Positions 8,024-23,927 of a stretch of DNA of 32,259 bases are shown here, in pieces; position 1 is the stretch's first letter; every line of letters begins with the position of its first letter. Below the pieces are notes generated by a model, which saw only the letters and a program-made list of their open reading frames with translations, searched no databases and was not told the DNA's origin. A program made the position numbers and the translations under genes. The stretch covers positions 1 through 32,259 of the forward strand of contig SIRX01000061.1 in assembly GCA_004563715.1 (NCBI GenBank), read 5' to 3'. This DNA is from Actinomycetota bacterium (lineage in GTDB: Bacteria > Actinomycetota > Rubrobacteria > Rubrobacterales > Rubrobacteraceae).

Positions 8024-8900
8024 CACGGGACACACCCGAGACTCCCACGAAGGTTTCGACGGGGGGACCCGCCTGGGCGGGTCCCCCGTTGTCTTTTGCA
8101 CGGACCTTTCCTACTCTTACCCCGGCTCGGAGGTCCCGGCGCTTTCGGGGGTGAGCTTCGAGGTTCGCGGAGGAGAGTACGTGGGCGTCGTCGGGCCCAA
8201 CGGCGGTGGCAAGTCCACCCTGGTCCGCCTCCTGAACGGCCTTCTCAAACCGGACGCGGGCGCCGCGCGGGTGTACGGCCGGAATCCGGCCACAGAACCC
8301 TTTGAAGTGCGCAGGAAAGTCGGGATGCTCTTCCAGAACCCGGACAACGGCCTCGTGGCGCCTTTTGTCGAGGACGACGTGGCGTTCGGGCTCGAGAACC
8401 TGGGGGTCCCGCGGGAGGAGATGCGCGTTCGGGTTGCGCAGGCGATGCGGGCCGTTGGTCTCTCCGGGTACGAGCGGCGGGAGCCGCATACGCTCTCTGG
8501 CGGTGAGAAGCAGCGGGTCGCGCTGGCGGGCATCCTGGTCTTGGAGCCGGAGGTCCTGATCCTCGACGAGCCGACCTCGATGCTCGACGCCGCCGGGCGG
8601 CGGGAGGTGTTGGAGAAGGTCCGGTACCTGCGCGGCGAAAAGACGATCTTGCACGCCACCCACCACCTCGAAGAGCTCGCCGATGCTGACCGGGTCCTGG
8701 TCCTGAACGACGGAGAGGTCACCGCAGACGTTACCCCCGACAGGCTCTTCGCGAACGCCGGGCTTCTGCGAGAGAACCGGCTCTCGCTGCCGCCGGTGCT
8801 GCGGCTCGCGGCGGACCTCGGGCTACCGCTGCACCGTACCCCGGAAGACCTTGCGACGGAGATCCTGGCTGAGATCGGCGACGGGGCGGGCGTTCCTTGA
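7968..8900 (+). CDS. ecfA1: ECF transporter ATPase A1 (start uncertain)
   Basis: ABC ATPase of an energy-coupling-factor vitamin/metal importer. ABC-like sequence starts near 8088 (VVFCTDLSYSYPG). Walker A GPNGGGKST is at 8193-8219, the Q-loop at LFQNPDN, the signature at LSGGEKQRVALAG, Walker B at VLILDEP and the switch His in ATHH. No ATG, GTG or TTG occurs in frame between the rplQ stop and the GTG inside GVSFEV (near 8151), which would cut off the first strand. The open frame runs back to TTG 7968 inside rplQ, but that extra part looks like noise. The stop overlaps ecfA2 (TTGA). Product is confident; the start is not. Confidence 0.85.
   Translation: MATGQSRSTWSWSTTRWSNTGHTRDSHEGFDGGTRLGGSPVVFCTDLSYSYPGSEVPALSGVSFEVRGGEYVGVVGPNGGGKSTLVRLLNGLLKPDAGAARVYGRNPATEPFEVRRKVGMLFQNPDNGLVAPFVEDDVAFGLENLGVPREEMRVRVAQAMRAVGLSGYERREPHTLSGGEKQRVALAGILVLEPEVLILDEPTSMLDAAGRREVLEKVRYLRGEKTILHATHHLEELADADRVLVLNDGEVTADVTPDRLFANAGLLRENRLSLPPVLRLAADLGLPLHRTPEDLATEILAEIGDGAGVP
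8061..8097 (+). terminator. Rho-independent terminator-like hairpin after rplQ
   Basis: An 11-12 bp perfect GC stem (GGGGGACCCGC pairing with GCGGGTCCCCC, arms within 8062-8087, loop about 4 nt) is followed by GTTGTCTTTT. The U-tract is interrupted but the stem is very strong. It probably ends or attenuates the ribosomal operon. It lies inside the frame that leads into ecfA1, immediately before the first residues that look like an ABC ATPase. Confidence 0.7.
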
Positions 8901-11973: not shown

Positions 11974-12002
11974 TTGACAGCCGGTAGGACCGGGCGCATA
12001 AT
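11974..12002 (+). promoter_or_regulatory. Sigma-70-type promoter of the riboswitch operon
   Basis: TTGACA at 11974-11979 and CATAAT at 11997-12002 are separated by exactly 17 nt. The -35 is a perfect consensus and the -10 matches at five of six positions. The predicted transcription start is near 12009, directly before the first helix of the cobalamin riboswitch, so position supports the call. Confidence 0.8.
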
Positions 12003-12009
12003 GCGGGGG

Positions 12010-12207
12010 CTGTCGGTTCGCCGGAGCCGCAAGGTTCCGGCGTCGCAAGAGGGAATCCGGCGAGAATCCGGAGCTGCCCCGCAGCGGTAAGCGGAAACGA
12101 AAGCCGTCACAGAGCACTGGCCCTCCGGGAGGGCTGGGAAGCGGCGGCGAGTAGGACGCGGTGATCTGCAGGATCCCACCGTCCGCGAGCCCGAAGACCT
12201 GCCGGCG
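12010..12207 (+). ncRNA. Cobalamin (B12) riboswitch
   Basis: The leader shows the conserved blocks of the cobalamin aptamer in order: GGTTCGCCGG near the 5' end, AGAGGGAATCCGGCGAGAATCC, then GAGCTGCCCCGCAGCGGTAA (helix P3-P4 core), an AGCACTGG/GGGAAG pair framing a hairpin CCCTCCGGGAGGG (P5 region), and the 3' B12 box AGCCCGAAGACCTGCCGGC ending near 12207. It is in the sense orientation for nrdA, 197 nt upstream of its ATG. Cobalamin riboswitches normally lower expression when adenosylcobalamin is plentiful. The boundaries are estimated to within about 10 nt. Confidence 0.93.
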
Positions 12208-12209
12208 GC

Positions 12210-12231
12210 GCCCGCGGTGGTACGCGCGGGC
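12210..12231 (+). promoter_or_regulatory. Hairpin 3' of the B12 box, candidate expression platform
   Basis: GCCCGCG at 12210-12216 pairs with CGCGGGC at 12225-12231 across an 8-nt loop, and outer bases (GCCGGCGGC on the left, TGGCGGC on the right) extend it imperfectly. CTCTTT follows. It could be the regulatory helix that follows the aptamer, acting as a weak terminator or through a loop-loop contact. The remaining leader (12232-12403) shows no gene; AAAGGGG near 12390 is the nrdA ribosome-binding site. Confidence 0.45.
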
Positions 12232-18407: not shown

Positions 18408-18990
18408 GCCGAGCACGTCGCCGGCGGCGATCTCCAGGCCGGCTACGGTCTCCGCCCGCAAGGTTTCGCCGCGCCGGGCGCGCAGGGTCTTGCGGTATCC
18501 GTCCGATGCCGGAAGCGAGTGGACCTCGACCGTACCGGCCGACAGGTCCACGAGCCAGGTCTCGGGGATGCCGGCGCGGGCGTACAGGGGCAGCTTGACC
18601 CCGGCGTCGTACTCCGCCGAGGTGTCCGAGACCTCGACCACGAGCAGCACGTCTGCGGGACCGGGGTGCTCCCGGGAGTAGAAGTCTGCGCGGGGTTTCA
18701 GCAGCGCCACGTCCGGTTCGGGCTCCGAGTTCTCGTCGAGTCGGATGGGGGCTCTGTACGCGCACCAGCGTGTGATCTCCTGCCAGCCTGTTCAGGTGAC
18801 GATTGAGCCGGTCTACACACGCCGCGTAACGGCTGCCCATCGGTGCCATCTCTATGATCTCCCCTTCGATGAGCTCGACGCGGTCGTCTTCCCCCAGGAT
18901 GCCGGCCTCGGCCATCCGGTGGTACTCGGCGACGCCGAAGCGTCTCCTCTGGGTCTGTACCGGTGGGTGTCCCTGTTTGACGGCCTGCAT
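18405..18990 (-). pseudogene. Uma2-family (DUF820) endonuclease-like gene with a frameshift
   Basis: Reading the minus strand from ATG 18990, the N-terminal half (RRFGVAEYHRMAEAGILGED, VELIEGEIIEMAPMG) matches the Uma2 family of PD-(D/E)XK-fold proteins. Near 18747-18751, a run of five G on the plus strand shifts the frame; with one base fewer the reading becomes RVQSPIRLDENSEPEPDVAL and runs on into the C half (LVVEVSDTS, LPLYARAGIPETWLVDL). The putative nuclease Asp, Glu and Lys are all present once the frame is repaired. Full length would be about 194 residues. It is either a recent pseudogene or a homopolymer sequencing error. Confidence 0.8.
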
Positions 18991-19047
18991 AAGCTCTCTG
19001 CGGAGATGTTAGCATACCCCCAGAAGTCTAAATCCGGAGGCGAAAAC

Positions 19048-19329
19048 TTGATATCCGAAGAGCAGGTGCGACACGTGGCGAACCTGGCCCGGCTGGGGCT
19101 GACGGACGAGGAGATCGGGCGTATCGGCGGCCAGCTAGGGGCCATCCTGGAGAGCATAGACAAGATCGGGGAGCTGGACCTCGCGGACGTGCCCCCGACG
19201 GCCAACCCCTTGCACCTGACGAACGTGCTGCGCCCCGATGAGCCGCGCGGAGAGCTGCCGCGCGAGGAAGCGCTCTCGGTCGCCCCGGACCCGGTAGACG
19301 CCCTCTTCGCCGTGCCCCGGATAGACTGA
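19048..19329 (+). CDS. gatC: Aspartyl/glutamyl-tRNA amidotransferase subunit C
   Basis: 93-residue GatC, the small chaperone-like subunit that wraps GatA and GatB in the amidotransferase converting Glu-tRNA(Gln) (and Asp-tRNA(Asn)) to the amide form. ISEEQVRHVANLARLGLTDEE, LDLADVPPTANP and LRPDEPR are typical. The start is TTG 19048, with GGAGG at 19036-19040 (7-nt spacing). The open frame continues upstream but that part is antisense to the Uma2-type gene. TGATG overlaps the gatA start. Confidence 0.94.
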   Translation: MISEEQVRHVANLARLGLTDEEIGRIGGQLGAILESIDKIGELDLADVPPTANPLHLTNVLRPDEPRGELPREEALSVAPDPVDALFAVPRID

Positions 19330-20777
19330 TGCAGAACCTCACCGCGTACGAGCTGGCGCAGAGGATAGCCGCGAGGGAGGTCTCCGCCCGCGAGGCCGCC
19401 GAGGTAGCCAACGCCCGCGTCGAGGAGGTAGAGGAGGACGTCAACGCCTTCGTAACGACCACGCCCGAGCTCGCCCTCGAACGGGCGGGACGGGTCGACG
19501 GGCGGCTGCAAGGTGGTGAGAACGGCGGGGTGAGGCTCTGGGAGACCGTGCCGACCACCGTGAAGGACGTGCTCTCCACCCGCGGCGTCCGGACCACGTG
19601 CGGCTCCAGGATCCTGGAGGACTTCACGCCCCTCTACGACGCCTCGGCGCTGCTGAACTTCGGCGAGGACCTCGTCATGGTCGGCAAGGCCAACATGGAC
19701 GAGTTTGCGATGGGCTCCTCGACGGAGAACTCGGCCTACAGGCCGACCCGGAACCCGTGGGGCCTGGGCCGGGTGCCGGGTGGCTCCTCGGGCGGGTCGG
19801 CGGCGGCGGTGGCCGCCGGGGAGGGTTGGTGGGCCCTGGGGACGGACACCGGCGGGTCGGTGCGCCAGCCGGCGGCGCTGTGCGGCATCGTGGGCTTGAA
19901 GCCCACCTACGGGCGGGTCTCGCGCCACGGGCTCATCGCCTTCGGGTCCTCGCTGGACGTGATCGGGCCGATGACCCGCGATGTGCGGGACGCGGCGCTG
20001 CTCCTGCAGGCCATCGCCGGCCACGACCCCCACGACTCCACGAGCGCCAACGTCGAGGTGCCGGACTACCTTGCGGAGCTGGAGAACGGGGTGGAGGGGT
20101 TGCGCATCGGCCTCGTGACGGAGCTGATGGACGAGCGGATAGACGCGGGGGTGCGCGAGATCGTGGCGGACGTCGCCAATAGCCTCGAAGCCGCCGGGGC
20201 CGAGGTGGGGGAGGCGAGCCTGCCACACGCCTACTACGCGCTGGAGGCGTACTACATCATCGCGCCGGCGGAGGTCTCCTCGAACCTGGCTCGCTTCGAC
20301 GGCGTGCGGTACGGGCTGCGGGTCTCGGCCGACGGGGTGCACGAGATGTACCGCAAGACCCGGGAGGAGGGCTTCGGGGACGAGGCGAAGCGCCGGATCA
20401 TGCTCGGTACCTACGCCCTCTCCGCCGGTTACTACGACGCCTACTACGCCCAGGCGCAGAAGGTGCGCACCAAGATCATCGAGGACTTCCGCGCGGCCCT
20501 GCACCGCTACGACGTGCTGCTCTCGCCGACCTCGCCCTCGGTGGCCTTCGAGCTCGGCTCAAAAACCGGGGACCCGCTCGCCATGTACCTGCAGGATATC
20601 TGCGCCGTCCCGGCCAGCCTGGCGGGGATACCGGCGATCAGCGTCCCCGGCGGCCTGTCTGACGGGCTCCCCGTGGGCGTACAGCTCATGAGCGACCACT
20701 TTACGGAGCCGCTGCTCCTGCGTGCCGCCCGCGCCGCGGAGCAGGTCGCGGACTTCGAGTTTACGCTGAAGCCCTGA
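19329..20777 (+). CDS. gatA: Aspartyl/glutamyl-tRNA amidotransferase subunit A
   Basis: 482-residue GatA of the amidase-signature family, which releases ammonia from glutamine for the GatB reaction. The Ser-cisSer-Lys triad is visible: Lys79 (TVKDVL), Ser154 in GSSGGSAAAV and Ser177 in GTDTGGSVRQPAALCG. Substrate-region motifs such as GKANMDEFAMGSSTENSAY are intact. It overlaps gatC by 1 nt. gatB is not next to it but 1.7 kb downstream, beyond two minus-strand genes. Confidence 0.96.
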   Translation: MQNLTAYELAQRIAAREVSAREAAEVANARVEEVEEDVNAFVTTTPELALERAGRVDGRLQGGENGGVRLWETVPTTVKDVLSTRGVRTTCGSRILEDFTPLYDASALLNFGEDLVMVGKANMDEFAMGSSTENSAYRPTRNPWGLGRVPGGSSGGSAAAVAAGEGWWALGTDTGGSVRQPAALCGIVGLKPTYGRVSRHGLIAFGSSLDVIGPMTRDVRDAALLLQAIAGHDPHDSTSANVEVPDYLAELENGVEGLRIGLVTELMDERIDAGVREIVADVANSLEAAGAEVGEASLPHAYYALEAYYIIAPAEVSSNLARFDGVRYGLRVSADGVHEMYRKTREEGFGDEAKRRIMLGTYALSAGYYDAYYAQAQKVRTKIIEDFRAALHRYDVLLSPTSPSVAFELGSKTGDPLAMYLQDICAVPASLAGIPAISVPGGLSDGLPVGVQLMSDHFTEPLLLRAARAAEQVADFEFTLKP

Positions 20778-20794
20778 GTCCGCCGACGGGCTCA
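20775..20794. terminator. Short hairpin between convergent gatA and HdeD-like genes
   Basis: TGAGTCCG and CGGGCTCA pair (eight pairs including one G-T) around a CCGA loop. The plus-strand stop TGA and the minus-strand stop are the two ends of the stem, as at 18379-18407. No U-tract is present, so activity as a terminator is an inference. Confidence 0.4.
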
Positions 20795-21376
20795 GGTCAC
20801 CCGGCTCGGGCGCTCGCCCGCCCCCTCGTCCCTGCCGCGCACCTGGAAGGCGGTAACCAGCAGCAGGACCCCGAACGCTATGGCGTAAACCCCGATGAGC
20901 CACACGAGGGAGAGGATGCCCACGCCCGGGAGCACCGCCAGGATCAGGCCGAAGAGCACCGAGATCGCGCCGCCGAGGATCAGGGCCCACTCGCCCCGGA
21001 TCTCCTGCCGCAGCCTTATGGCCATGGCGATCTCCGAAACCCCGGTGATGATGGCCCAGGCCGCGATCAGGTAGAGCAGGGCAAACGCGGTCAGGCCGGG
21101 CAGGATAAACGCGATGAGGCCCGCCAGGATGCCCACGATCCCCTCCAGTAACAGGGCCCAGCGCGGGGTACCACGCCTGGTGCCCTGGAACACGCCCACG
21201 ATCGAAAAAACGCCGTCCACGAGGGCGTAGGCGCCGAACAGCAGGATCAACGCCTCAAGCGCGATGCCGGGCCGCAACAGCGCGGCCAGCCCAAACAGTA
21301 TGGCGACGCCGCCCCGCAACGCCAGGGCCCACCAGTGTCCGGTCTCGGCGGGCAACATAGATCTCGACTGCGCCAT
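20792..21376 (-). CDS. HdeD-family (DUF308) membrane protein
   Basis: 194-residue protein with six hydrophobic helices in three similar hairpins (for example LRGGVAILFGLAALLRPGI, LEGIVGILAGLIAFILPGL and LGGAISVLFGLILAVLPGV), the repeat pattern of the HdeD/DUF308 family. HdeD is linked to acid resistance in E. coli, but the function of actinobacterial members is not established. The start is ATG 21376, preceded by GAGAGGAGG; the open frame continues upstream without conserved content. The C-terminal tail is charged and cytoplasmic-like. Confidence 0.85.
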   Translation of the reverse strand: MAQSRSMLPAETGHWWALALRGGVAILFGLAALLRPGIALEALILLFGAYALVDGVFSIVGVFQGTRRGTPRWALLLEGIVGILAGLIAFILPGLTAFALLYLIAAWAIITGVSEIAMAIRLRQEIRGEWALILGGAISVLFGLILAVLPGVGILSLVWLIGVYAIAFGVLLLVTAFQVRGRDEGAGERPSRVT

Positions 21377-21516
21377 GCGATCCTCCTCTCCAAAACCATT
21401 TCTCGTACCCGGCCGGAAGGACCGCGCCGGATCGGCCCGGCGACCGCACGGTATTGTCGCCGCCGGCACACGATAAATTATATGCCGTCCGCTGAGGTTT
21501 CGCCTCAACGGCGCTC

Positions 21517-22329
21517 CTACTCGCAGACGGCGTTGCCGCCGGCGCGCTTAGCCCGGTAGAGGGCTTTATCGGCGGCCCGGGTGAGGTCTTCCCGGGTCTC
21601 CCCATCCTCAGGGTAGGCGGCGACCCCGAGGGAGAGGGTGGGGTTCGCGCAGATACCGTTCTGCTCGAAGGTGTATGCCTCGATGTGGCGACGGATCTCC
21701 TCGGCGACCGTCAGGGATTCTTTCTTCGTCAGGCCGGGGAGGACCATCTGGTACTCGTCGCCCCCGAAGCGGGTGGCGTAGAGGTCTTCGGAGCCGAGGC
21801 AGTCCCGGATTATGTGTCCGATCTCTCCGACGGCGAACTCCCCGAAGAGGTGGCCGTAAGAGTCGTTTATCTTCTTCAGGTTATCTATGTCGGCCATCAG
21901 CACGCCCAGAGGTTCGCCCTGCTCCTGGCAAATTTCCAGCGACTGCCCGAAGCGCTCGTCGAGGCGGTTCTTCGCCAGCAAACCGGTCAGGTGATCGTGG
22001 TTGATCAGGCGCTGGATCTTACGGTGGAACTGCTCCTTGATGGGGTCCCGCTCGATAAACTCCAGCACGCTGTCGCCGACCGTGATCCGGTCCCCACAGC
22101 GCAGCGGGCGCGTACCCTCGACGTTCTCCTCGTTCACCACGGCCGGCGCTCCGGTGCCCAAATCTTCCAGCGTGTAGCCGTTTCTGGCGCCGCGCCGGAT
22201 CCTGGCGTGCCGCCACTCGACTTCTATGTCCCGGATGATGATGTCCGCCTCGAAGGGGTTGCTCCCCAAGACGAGGGAGTCGCCTTCTAGATAGTACACG
22301 TCACCGAAGCTCGGTCCCTGCAGGACCAC
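21517..22329 (-). CDS. FHA-GGDEF protein, putative diguanylate cyclase (start uncertain)
   Basis: An FHA domain (about 1-95: LVLGSNPFEADIIIRDIEVEWRHARI) is joined to a GGDEF domain (about 108-265) with HDHLTGLLAKNRL, DIDNLKKINDSYGH and the active-site signature RFGGDEY. GGDEY departs from GGDEF only in the last residue, so cyclic di-GMP synthesis is plausible. The inhibitory RxxD site before it is not conserved (GSED). No membrane segment is seen. GTG 22329 is the first ordinary start, but an ideal AGGAGG at 22362-22367 lies 5 nt before an in-frame ATC (22356), which would give a more complete FHA N-terminus. Confidence 0.88.
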   Translation of the reverse strand: MVLQGPSFGDVYYLEGDSLVLGSNPFEADIIIRDIEVEWRHARIRRGARNGYTLEDLGTGAPAVVNEENVEGTRPLRCGDRITVGDSVLEFIERDPIKEQFHRKIQRLINHDHLTGLLAKNRLDERFGQSLEICQEQGEPLGVLMADIDNLKKINDSYGHLFGEFAVGEIGHIIRDCLGSEDLYATRFGGDEYQMVLPGLTKKESLTVAEEIRRHIEAYTFEQNGICANPTLSLGVAAYPEDGETREDLTRAADKALYRAKRAGGNAVCE

Positions 22330-22397
22330 CAGATGGGGCTGACCACCCTCGGGGATACGGACCTCCTCTATCGCTGTTGCATGCGGGGTTCAGCGTA

Positions 22398-22427
22398 ATT
22401 CTAGCACCGGCCGGCCGGTGCTAGAAT
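22398..22427. repeat. Perfect 30-bp palindrome with symmetric extended -10 motifs
   Basis: The half-site ATTCTAGCACCGGCC (22398-22412) is followed directly by its exact reverse complement. Each arm ends in TGCTAGAAT, which reads as an extended -10 element (TGnTAGAAT) outward on each strand: towards gatB on plus (TAGAAT at 22422-22427) and towards the FHA-GGDEF gene on minus (22403 back to 22398). No good -35 hexamer is visible. It may be a symmetric divergent promoter, an operator, or both. Confidence 0.65.
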
Positions 22428-22466
22428 AAACCGGTACACAGGCGGAGAGCGCGAGGTATCGGTTTC

Positions 22467-23927
22467 TTGGAAGTCACAGAGCAGCGGACCTACACGGCGG
22501 TTATCGGGCTGGAGTTCCACGTGCACCTGGCCACCCGGACCAAGATGTTCTGCGGGTGCCGGGTAGCCTACGGAGATCCGCCCAACACCCACACCTGCCC
22601 GGTGTGCCTCGGGCATCCGGGCGCCCTGCCGGTCACCAACGAGAAGGCCATAGAGCTCGGCGTGCGGGCGGGGCTCGCCCTGAATTGCGACGTGGCCCGG
22701 CGATCCGTCTTCGCCCGCAAGAACTACTTCTACCCCGACCTGCCGAAGGGGTACCAGATCTCCCAGTACGACGCCCCGATCTGCACCGGCGGCCACCTGG
22801 ACGTGCCGGTGGGCGAGGAGACGATCCGGGTGGGCATCACGCGGCTGCACCTGGAAGAAGACGCGGCCAAGAACGTCCACGTTGGCACCTCGGGCCGGAT
22901 GCACGGCTCGGTCGGCTCGCTCGTGGACTTCAACCGCGGCGGCACGCCCCTCATGGAGATCGTCACCGAGCCCGACATCCCTTCGCCCGAGGCCGCCCGG
23001 GCCACCGCCAACCACCTCAAGGAGATCCTGCGGGCCGTCGGCGTCTCGGAAGCCGACATGGAGAAGGGCCAGCTCCGCTGCGACGCCAACGTCTCGATCC
23101 GCAACCCCGACGGCTCCTTCGGCACCAAGACCGAACTGAAGAACATGAACTCGTTCCGCTTTGTCGAGCGGGGCCTCGCCGCGGAGCTCGCGCGCCAGCG
23201 GGAGATACTGGAGGGCGGCGGACGCGTTACGCAGACCACGCTCCACTACGACCCGGAGACCGACGAGGTCCACGAGCTGCGCAGCAAGGAGTACGCCCAC
23301 GACTACCGCTACTTCCCCGAGCCGGACCTGCTTCCGCTGGAGCTGACCGACGCCTGGGTGCGCGAGGTACGGGGCAGCCTCCCCGAGCTGCCCGACCAGA
23401 TGCGCGCCCGCTTCGTCGAGCAGTACAGCCTCTCGCCCTACGACGCCGGGGTGCTGACTTCCGACCGGGACCTCGCCGCCTACTACGAGGCGGTCGCCGC
23501 CGGCCCGGTGGACCCCAAGCAGGCGGCCAACTGGATCACGGTCGAGCTCCGGGCCCGGCTGAACGAGGCGGGGATGGAGATCTCCGAGGCCCGCGTAAGC
23601 CCGGAGCGGATAATCGAGCTGATCGGGTTGGTAGACGATGGCACTATCTCCCGCGCTGCCGCCAAGGACGTGCTGGATCGCATTTTTACCAGCGGCGAGT
23701 CCCCCTCGGCCGTCGTAGAGCGGGAGGGACTGGCGGCGATGGGTGGCGACGAGCTCTCCGGCGTCGTGGACGAGGTCCTGGCCGCGAACCCCGAGGAGGC
23801 CGGCCGGGTCCGGGACGGGGACCAGAAGGTGATCGGCTTCCTCATCGGGCAGGTGATGAAGGCGACCCGTGGCGGGGCCGACGGCGGCCGGGTGCGAGGG
23901 CTTATCCTGGAGAAGCTGGGCTCCTAG
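22467..23927 (+). CDS. gatB: Aspartyl/glutamyl-tRNA amidotransferase subunit B
   Basis: 486-residue GatB, which activates the tRNA-bound Glu or Asp with ATP and transfers ammonia supplied by GatA. GLEFHVHLATRTKMFCGC, the zinc-type Cys set (CGC and CPVC in NTHTCPVCLGHPGALPV), KNYFYPDLPKGYQISQYD and LMEIVTEPD are canonical. The C-terminal helical and YqeY-like tail is complete to VRGLILEKLGS. The start is TTG 22467, with GAGG 10 nt upstream. Transcription may begin at the palindrome just before it. Confidence 0.96.
   Translation: MEVTEQRTYTAVIGLEFHVHLATRTKMFCGCRVAYGDPPNTHTCPVCLGHPGALPVTNEKAIELGVRAGLALNCDVARRSVFARKNYFYPDLPKGYQISQYDAPICTGGHLDVPVGEETIRVGITRLHLEEDAAKNVHVGTSGRMHGSVGSLVDFNRGGTPLMEIVTEPDIPSPEAARATANHLKEILRAVGVSEADMEKGQLRCDANVSIRNPDGSFGTKTELKNMNSFRFVERGLAAELARQREILEGGGRVTQTTLHYDPETDEVHELRSKEYAHDYRYFPEPDLLPLELTDAWVREVRGSLPELPDQMRARFVEQYSLSPYDAGVLTSDRDLAAYYEAVAAGPVDPKQAANWITVELRARLNEAGMEISEARVSPERIIELIGLVDDGTISRAAAKDVLDRIFTSGESPSAVVEREGLAAMGGDELSGVVDEVLAANPEEAGRVRDGDQKVIGFLIGQVMKATRGGADGGRVRGLILEKLGS

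Follow-up and report, generated by a model that had tools for sequence, protein, structure and literature searches.

Why does the spacer between two divergently oriented genes in a member of the Rubrobacteraceae contain a perfect 30-bp palindrome, and is the symmetry itself what matters? The sequence in question, ATTCTAGCACCGGCCGGCCGGTGCTAGAAT, occupies positions 22398-22427 of the window, that is, of the whole 32,259-nt stretch of DNA that was analyzed. The initial annotation had placed a perfect palindrome between a divergent FHA-GGDEF gene and gatB, and this description was borne out for the coordinates, the arms, and the genes. The palindrome is exact, with 15-bp arms that are 100% complementary and no loop, and the outward end of each arm is TGCTAGAAT. 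The runner-up among the loop-free perfect palindromes of the window has arms of 8 bp, and palindromes as long as this one are expected by chance about 0.00015 times per window, or about 0.014 times per 3 Mb. The order of the genes is gatC, gatA, DUF308 (minus strand), FHA-GGDEF (minus strand), and gatB (plus strand), with the palindrome in the divergent spacer between the last two:

18745-19329: open reading frame within which gatC lies
19329-20777: gatA
20792-21508, minus strand: gene for a DUF308 protein
21517-22356, minus strand: FHA-GGDEF gene, encoding a predicted diguanylate cyclase (the listed open reading frame starts at GTG 22329)
22391, minus strand: predicted transcription start of the FHA-GGDEF gene, inferred from the -10 position
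22398-22427: 30-bp perfect palindrome, in which a palindromic 12-bp centre is flanked by two putative extended -10 elements that point outward; unique in the genome
22398-22406, minus strand: TGCTAGAAT, predicted extended -10 element of the FHA-GGDEF promoter (TAGAAT hexamer at 22403-22398)
22407-22418: CCGGCCGGCCGG, the centre that separates the arms; it is a palindrome in this genome alone, and relatives differ in spacer length and sequence
22419-22427, plus strand: TGCTAGAAT, predicted extended -10 element of the gatB promoter (TAGAAT hexamer at 22422-22427), conserved in relatives
22434, plus strand: predicted transcription start of gatB, inferred from the -10 position, with a leader of about 33 nt
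22467-23927, plus strand: gatB, encoding subunit B of the Asp/Glu-tRNA amidotransferase, with a TTG start (Pfam GatB_N, 6.9e-112; GatB_Yqey, 3.9e-42)

The nearest named relatives of this gatB, at 79% and 76% identity, come from metagenome-assembled genomes of the Rubrobacteraceae. In the window (18745-23927), the two minus-strand genes split gatCA from gatB; several relatives have gatB immediately after gatA. The protein encoded by the FHA-GGDEF gene matches the Pfam GGDEF domain (3.4e-37) and an FHA-type domain. A diguanylate cyclase is unsurprising here because c-di-GMP signalling, via WhiG/RsiG, governs the type IV pili of Rubrobacter (PMC8325347). The same paper reports a genome-wide mapping of transcription starts for R. 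radiotolerans. The link between the diguanylate cyclase and tRNA amidation consists of adjacency alone, and about half of the genomes lack that adjacency.

Taken together, the comparisons described below suggest that the palindrome very probably consists of two divergent promoters arranged closely back to back, and that its arms would be extended -10 elements (RRTGYTARAAT) used by the housekeeping polymerase. The right arm would drive gatB, and the left arm would drive the FHA-GGDEF gene. The finding is thus mostly an ordinary one: a back-to-back arrangement of two promoter elements of a common kind.

The right arm was traced by comparison with 39 further genomes of the family (the genus has no other species in the collection). 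Upstream of gatB, the element TG[CTG]TA[AG]AAT is present in 33 of the 37 genomes in which gatB was matched (27 of 31 loci in the main reading, plus six more loci that were read separately); it is missing at four gatB loci (G001, G002, G003, and G010). In G011, gatB is preceded by an element of the TGGTAGAAT type. At the divergent loci that were measured, the distance from the end of the element to the gatB start codon is nearly constant (36-51 nt). The element is kept at loci without an adjacent FHA gene (L130, L137, L138, L143, L144, L146, L147, L155, and L156) as well as at loci with gatA directly upstream (L260, L261, L262, and L264), and therefore it belongs to gatB. The alignment of 27 gatB promoters on this motif yielded the consensus RRTGYTARAAT, and a sequence test of these 27 promoters detected no conserved -35 block.

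The left arm behaves correspondingly with respect to its own gene. TGNTANNNT occurs on the minus strand of the divergent spacer in all 17 genomes in which the FHA-GGDEF gene adjoins gatB, in most of them in the form TGCTAGAAT, TGTTAGAAT, or of the TGCTATA type, with weaker versions in G001, G030, and G031. Two further genomes represent natural losses of a single arm. In G038, a different, co-oriented gene lies upstream of gatB, and the best match to the FHA-GGDEF protein reaches only 3.4e-19; here, decay has reduced the left arm to GTTCCAGCA, while the gatB arm remains intact. G037 carries its FHA gene on another contig, and its left arm, which reads ATTCTAGTA, has lost the TG; the gatB arm is again intact. 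Judging from these sequences, the left arm accompanies the FHA-GGDEF gene: it is kept beside gatB and decayed without that neighbour. The presence of an outward extended -10 element on each arm, as proposed in the initial annotation, is thereby supported, given that each arm is conserved with its own gene and that the same 9-mer precedes tRNA genes.

What kind of promoter element are the arms? In this genome, a pattern search found TGCTAGAAT at 13 sites, compared to 3 sites for the reversed control, and some of these sites closely precede the genes for tRNA-Lys and tRNA-Gly and a thioredoxin-like (trxA-like) gene, among others. TGNTANNNT was present in 22 of the 37 listed 70-nt stretches upstream of tRNA genes, some of which are repeated because tRNA clusters share loci; the positions are mostly -20 to -28, and the corresponding frequency in background windows is 2.3%. 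A housekeeping extended -10 element is expected to occur in this way before tRNA and thioredoxin genes, and we infer that the sigma factor involved would be the housekeeping one. In both arms, TGn immediately precedes a TAnnnT hexamer, and the 27 aligned gatB promoters point to independence from a -35 element. A scan for consensus -35/-10 promoters found none at the palindrome. Thus, the arms resemble promoters of the housekeeping-sigma extended -10 type (TGnTAnnnT) in carrying one TGCTAGAAT each, in sharing their motif with tRNA genes, and in the distance of about 33-35 nt from each predicted transcription start to the likely start of translation. They differ from the usual representatives in that two copies are placed back to back around a perfectly symmetric centre and in that the purines before TG are conserved as well. 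Some tRNA promoters lack these RRTG purines, and an additional contact with a protein is therefore conceivable. Within the Rubrobacteraceae, RRTGYTARAAT, independent of -35, can be suggested as a housekeeping promoter signature.

Across the family, such elements form divergent back-to-back pairs several times as often as the reversed control does. In three genomes of genus g9, a similar compact outward pair of TGCTAGAAT, with an 11-12 bp spacer, is present at an unrelated locus (L172, about 659-688; L173 and L174, about 1501-1529), flanked by alcohol-dehydrogenase-like and epimerase-like genes, as named from their translations. Several genomes of the family share another, conserved divergent pair, ATTCTACCATGATTGC...TGTGTTACATT, with a fixed spacer of 23 bp, at a single locus that seems to be orthologous among them (for example, L219, L227, L230, L231, and L232). 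At L160 and L166, TGCTAGAAT lies only about 6-11 nt before an ATG or GTG, so that leaderless mRNAs are likely.

The symmetry of the palindrome fared differently from its arms. The spacer between the arms amounts to 11 bp in G035, 12 bp in the window and in G036, 20 bp in G012 and G013, 21 bp in G005, G009, and G017, 33 bp in G018, G020, and G024, 43 bp in G039 and G034, and 74 or 58 bp in G033. In the gatB tree, the sister of the genome containing the window is G009 (support 98/98); its arms are the same, but they enclose an asymmetric centre of 21 bp, and none of the relatives examined has a symmetric centre. Because the spacing varies and the centre of the sister is asymmetric, the dyad is not a conserved unit, and because each arm is conserved in the relatives on its own, the perfect symmetry is largely incidental. 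Once the identical outward arms and the conserved purines before TG are taken into account, only about 4 bp of symmetry are left over (GGCCGGCC, with a count of 6). Palindromes make up about 0.35% of the 8-mers in the window and 4.4% of the all-GC 8-mers, so that the perfect centre can be considered mildly unlikely by chance. Rather than selection for the dyad, the accidental placement of two identical conserved arms 12 bp apart, around a short, GC-rich, self-complementary centre, would account for the perfect palindrome. Template switching that corrects imperfect palindromes is an established mutational mechanism and would be an alternative route to the perfect centre. The spacers of 11, 12, 20, 21, 33, and 43 bp at the gatB loci seemed to be phased at 10.5 bp, but helical phasing of the arms was dropped as an explanation, given that 46 other divergent pairs in the family are unphased (Rayleigh p ~0.7), that some loci contain an alternative minus-strand element, and that the gatB loci are related to each other. 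The locus can be regarded as a natural experiment in promoter evolution within one bacterial family, in which arms are kept or lost with their own genes and the spacing drifts.

The proximity of the two predicted promoters has consequences for how they might operate. With the last T of each hexamer set at -7, the starts would lie at 22434 (plus strand) and 22391 (minus strand), 43 bp apart; that these are the positions predicted in the initial annotation is an arithmetic consequence of the -10 positions. Counted from the start of the other promoter, each -10 element would then occupy -31 to -36, approximately the -35 region of that promoter, so that a polymerase bound in one direction should exclude the other. 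As in ordinary divergent back-to-back promoter pairs, each gene would have its own promoter, and the relatives have spacers from 11 bp to 43 bp or more; unlike in such pairs, the spacer here is palindromic and short enough that polymerase footprints are expected to overlap. A stronger version of this scheme holds that the two promoters, which are exactly identical over 30 bp and have their -10 elements in each other's -35 regions, form one landing place for the polymerase, with an even choice of direction that couples the diguanylate cyclase gene and gatB by mutual exclusion, and that the symmetry is under selection in this lineage. We consider this version unlikely.

The initial annotation had also considered a repressor operator that links signalling to tRNA amidation. 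It is very improbable that the dyad is an operator at which a repressor dimer would regulate the FHA-GGDEF gene and gatB together. The dyad is long and perfect, it overlies both predicted -10 elements, and its centre is somewhat unlikely by chance, all of which would suit such a site. However, the half-site with its GG extension, the 11-mer GGTGCTAGAAT, occurs in the two arms of the palindrome and nowhere else in the genome, and the palindrome has no second copy, a result that, on its own, still allows a single-site operator. An operator should keep the distance between its half-sites, whereas the arms are separated by 11 to 43 bp or more; the centre lacks symmetry in all relatives; the gatB arm is retained without its partner; and the 9-mer TGCTAGAAT also occurs at tRNA promoters. 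Thus, the comparison of the intergenic regions revealed conserved arms with a variable spacer and centre, and no operator-like conserved dyad. A CIRCE-like (HrcA) operator, suggested by TAGCAC...GTGCTA, seems unlikely as well, given the variable spacing here; the spacing of CIRCE also differs from that of the palindrome. A striking, perfect promoter dyad is not necessarily an operator.

The initial annotation had further attributed divergent transcription to the symmetry of the -10 sequence itself. In bidirectional promoters of this kind, a single -10 element is shared and read in both directions, with starts 7-25 bp apart (PMC10268837, PMC12825309). The sequence of the palindrome is symmetric and has an outward-reading element on each strand, and the palindrome resembles the symmetric -10 bidirectional promoters (Warman et al. 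2021; PMC10268837; PMC12825309) in that transcription is predicted to proceed outward both ways and one orientation is expected to exclude the other. By analogy, the gatB/FHA-GGDEF site may work like this class. The mechanism, however, does not seem to fit: the two hexamers (22398-22403 and 22422-22427) are separate, 18 bp apart, and the predicted gap of about 43 bp between the starts, as computed from the -10 positions, would exceed the 7-25 bp that define the class (PMC10268837), which suggests a close divergent promoter pair and not one shared symmetric -10 element. A single symmetric -10 element of the Warman/Grainger type is therefore scarcely tenable as an explanation of this site. In E. 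coli, competition at bidirectional promoters made a difference only under strong activation of one of the two directions (PMC12825309), and a similar limit on promoter competition may hold here too.

The probability that the palindrome is a terminator hairpin, the end of a mobile element, or a dispersed repeat, a possibility raised in the initial annotation for the last of these, is negligible: folding yields a strong hairpin (z = -4.7), but the palindrome lacks a T run, a terminator scan was negative at the site, no Rfam element was found there, it lies between divergent gene starts, it is present as a single copy in the 3.47-Mb genome in a pattern search that tolerated up to 3 mismatches, and its arms are conserved at promoter distance from the genes.

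A side observation concerns the start of the FHA-GGDEF gene. In the frame of this gene, ATG, GTG, and TTG are absent from the in-frame upstream stop to GTG 22329. A perfect AGGAGG Shine-Dalgarno motif (22362-22367) is located 5 nt ahead of an in-frame ATC (22356-22354, minus strand), and translation probably begins at this non-canonical AUC codon. The layout of AGGAGG and ATC is repeated in the relatives L131, L105, and L148 (with a frame disruption nearby in L148), and in L105 none of the codons ATG, GTG, and TTG occurs from the upstream stop up to the conserved domain. In other relatives, the FHA-GGDEF gene starts with ATG or TTG. L128 and L141 probably also have such a non-canonical start behind an AGGAGG motif, the codon in L141 being AUU or AUC. 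The AUU start codon of infC resembles the AUC start proposed here.

Two other elements of the window were recorded. Soon after a likely gene end, a 12-bp inverted repeat, GGGGGACCCGCC/GGCGGGTCCCCC, with a 2-nt loop (8062-8087) is followed by GTTGTCTTTT and is probably a transcription terminator. A cobalamin riboswitch is present at 11997-12220 on the plus strand (Rfam RF00174, 93 bits).
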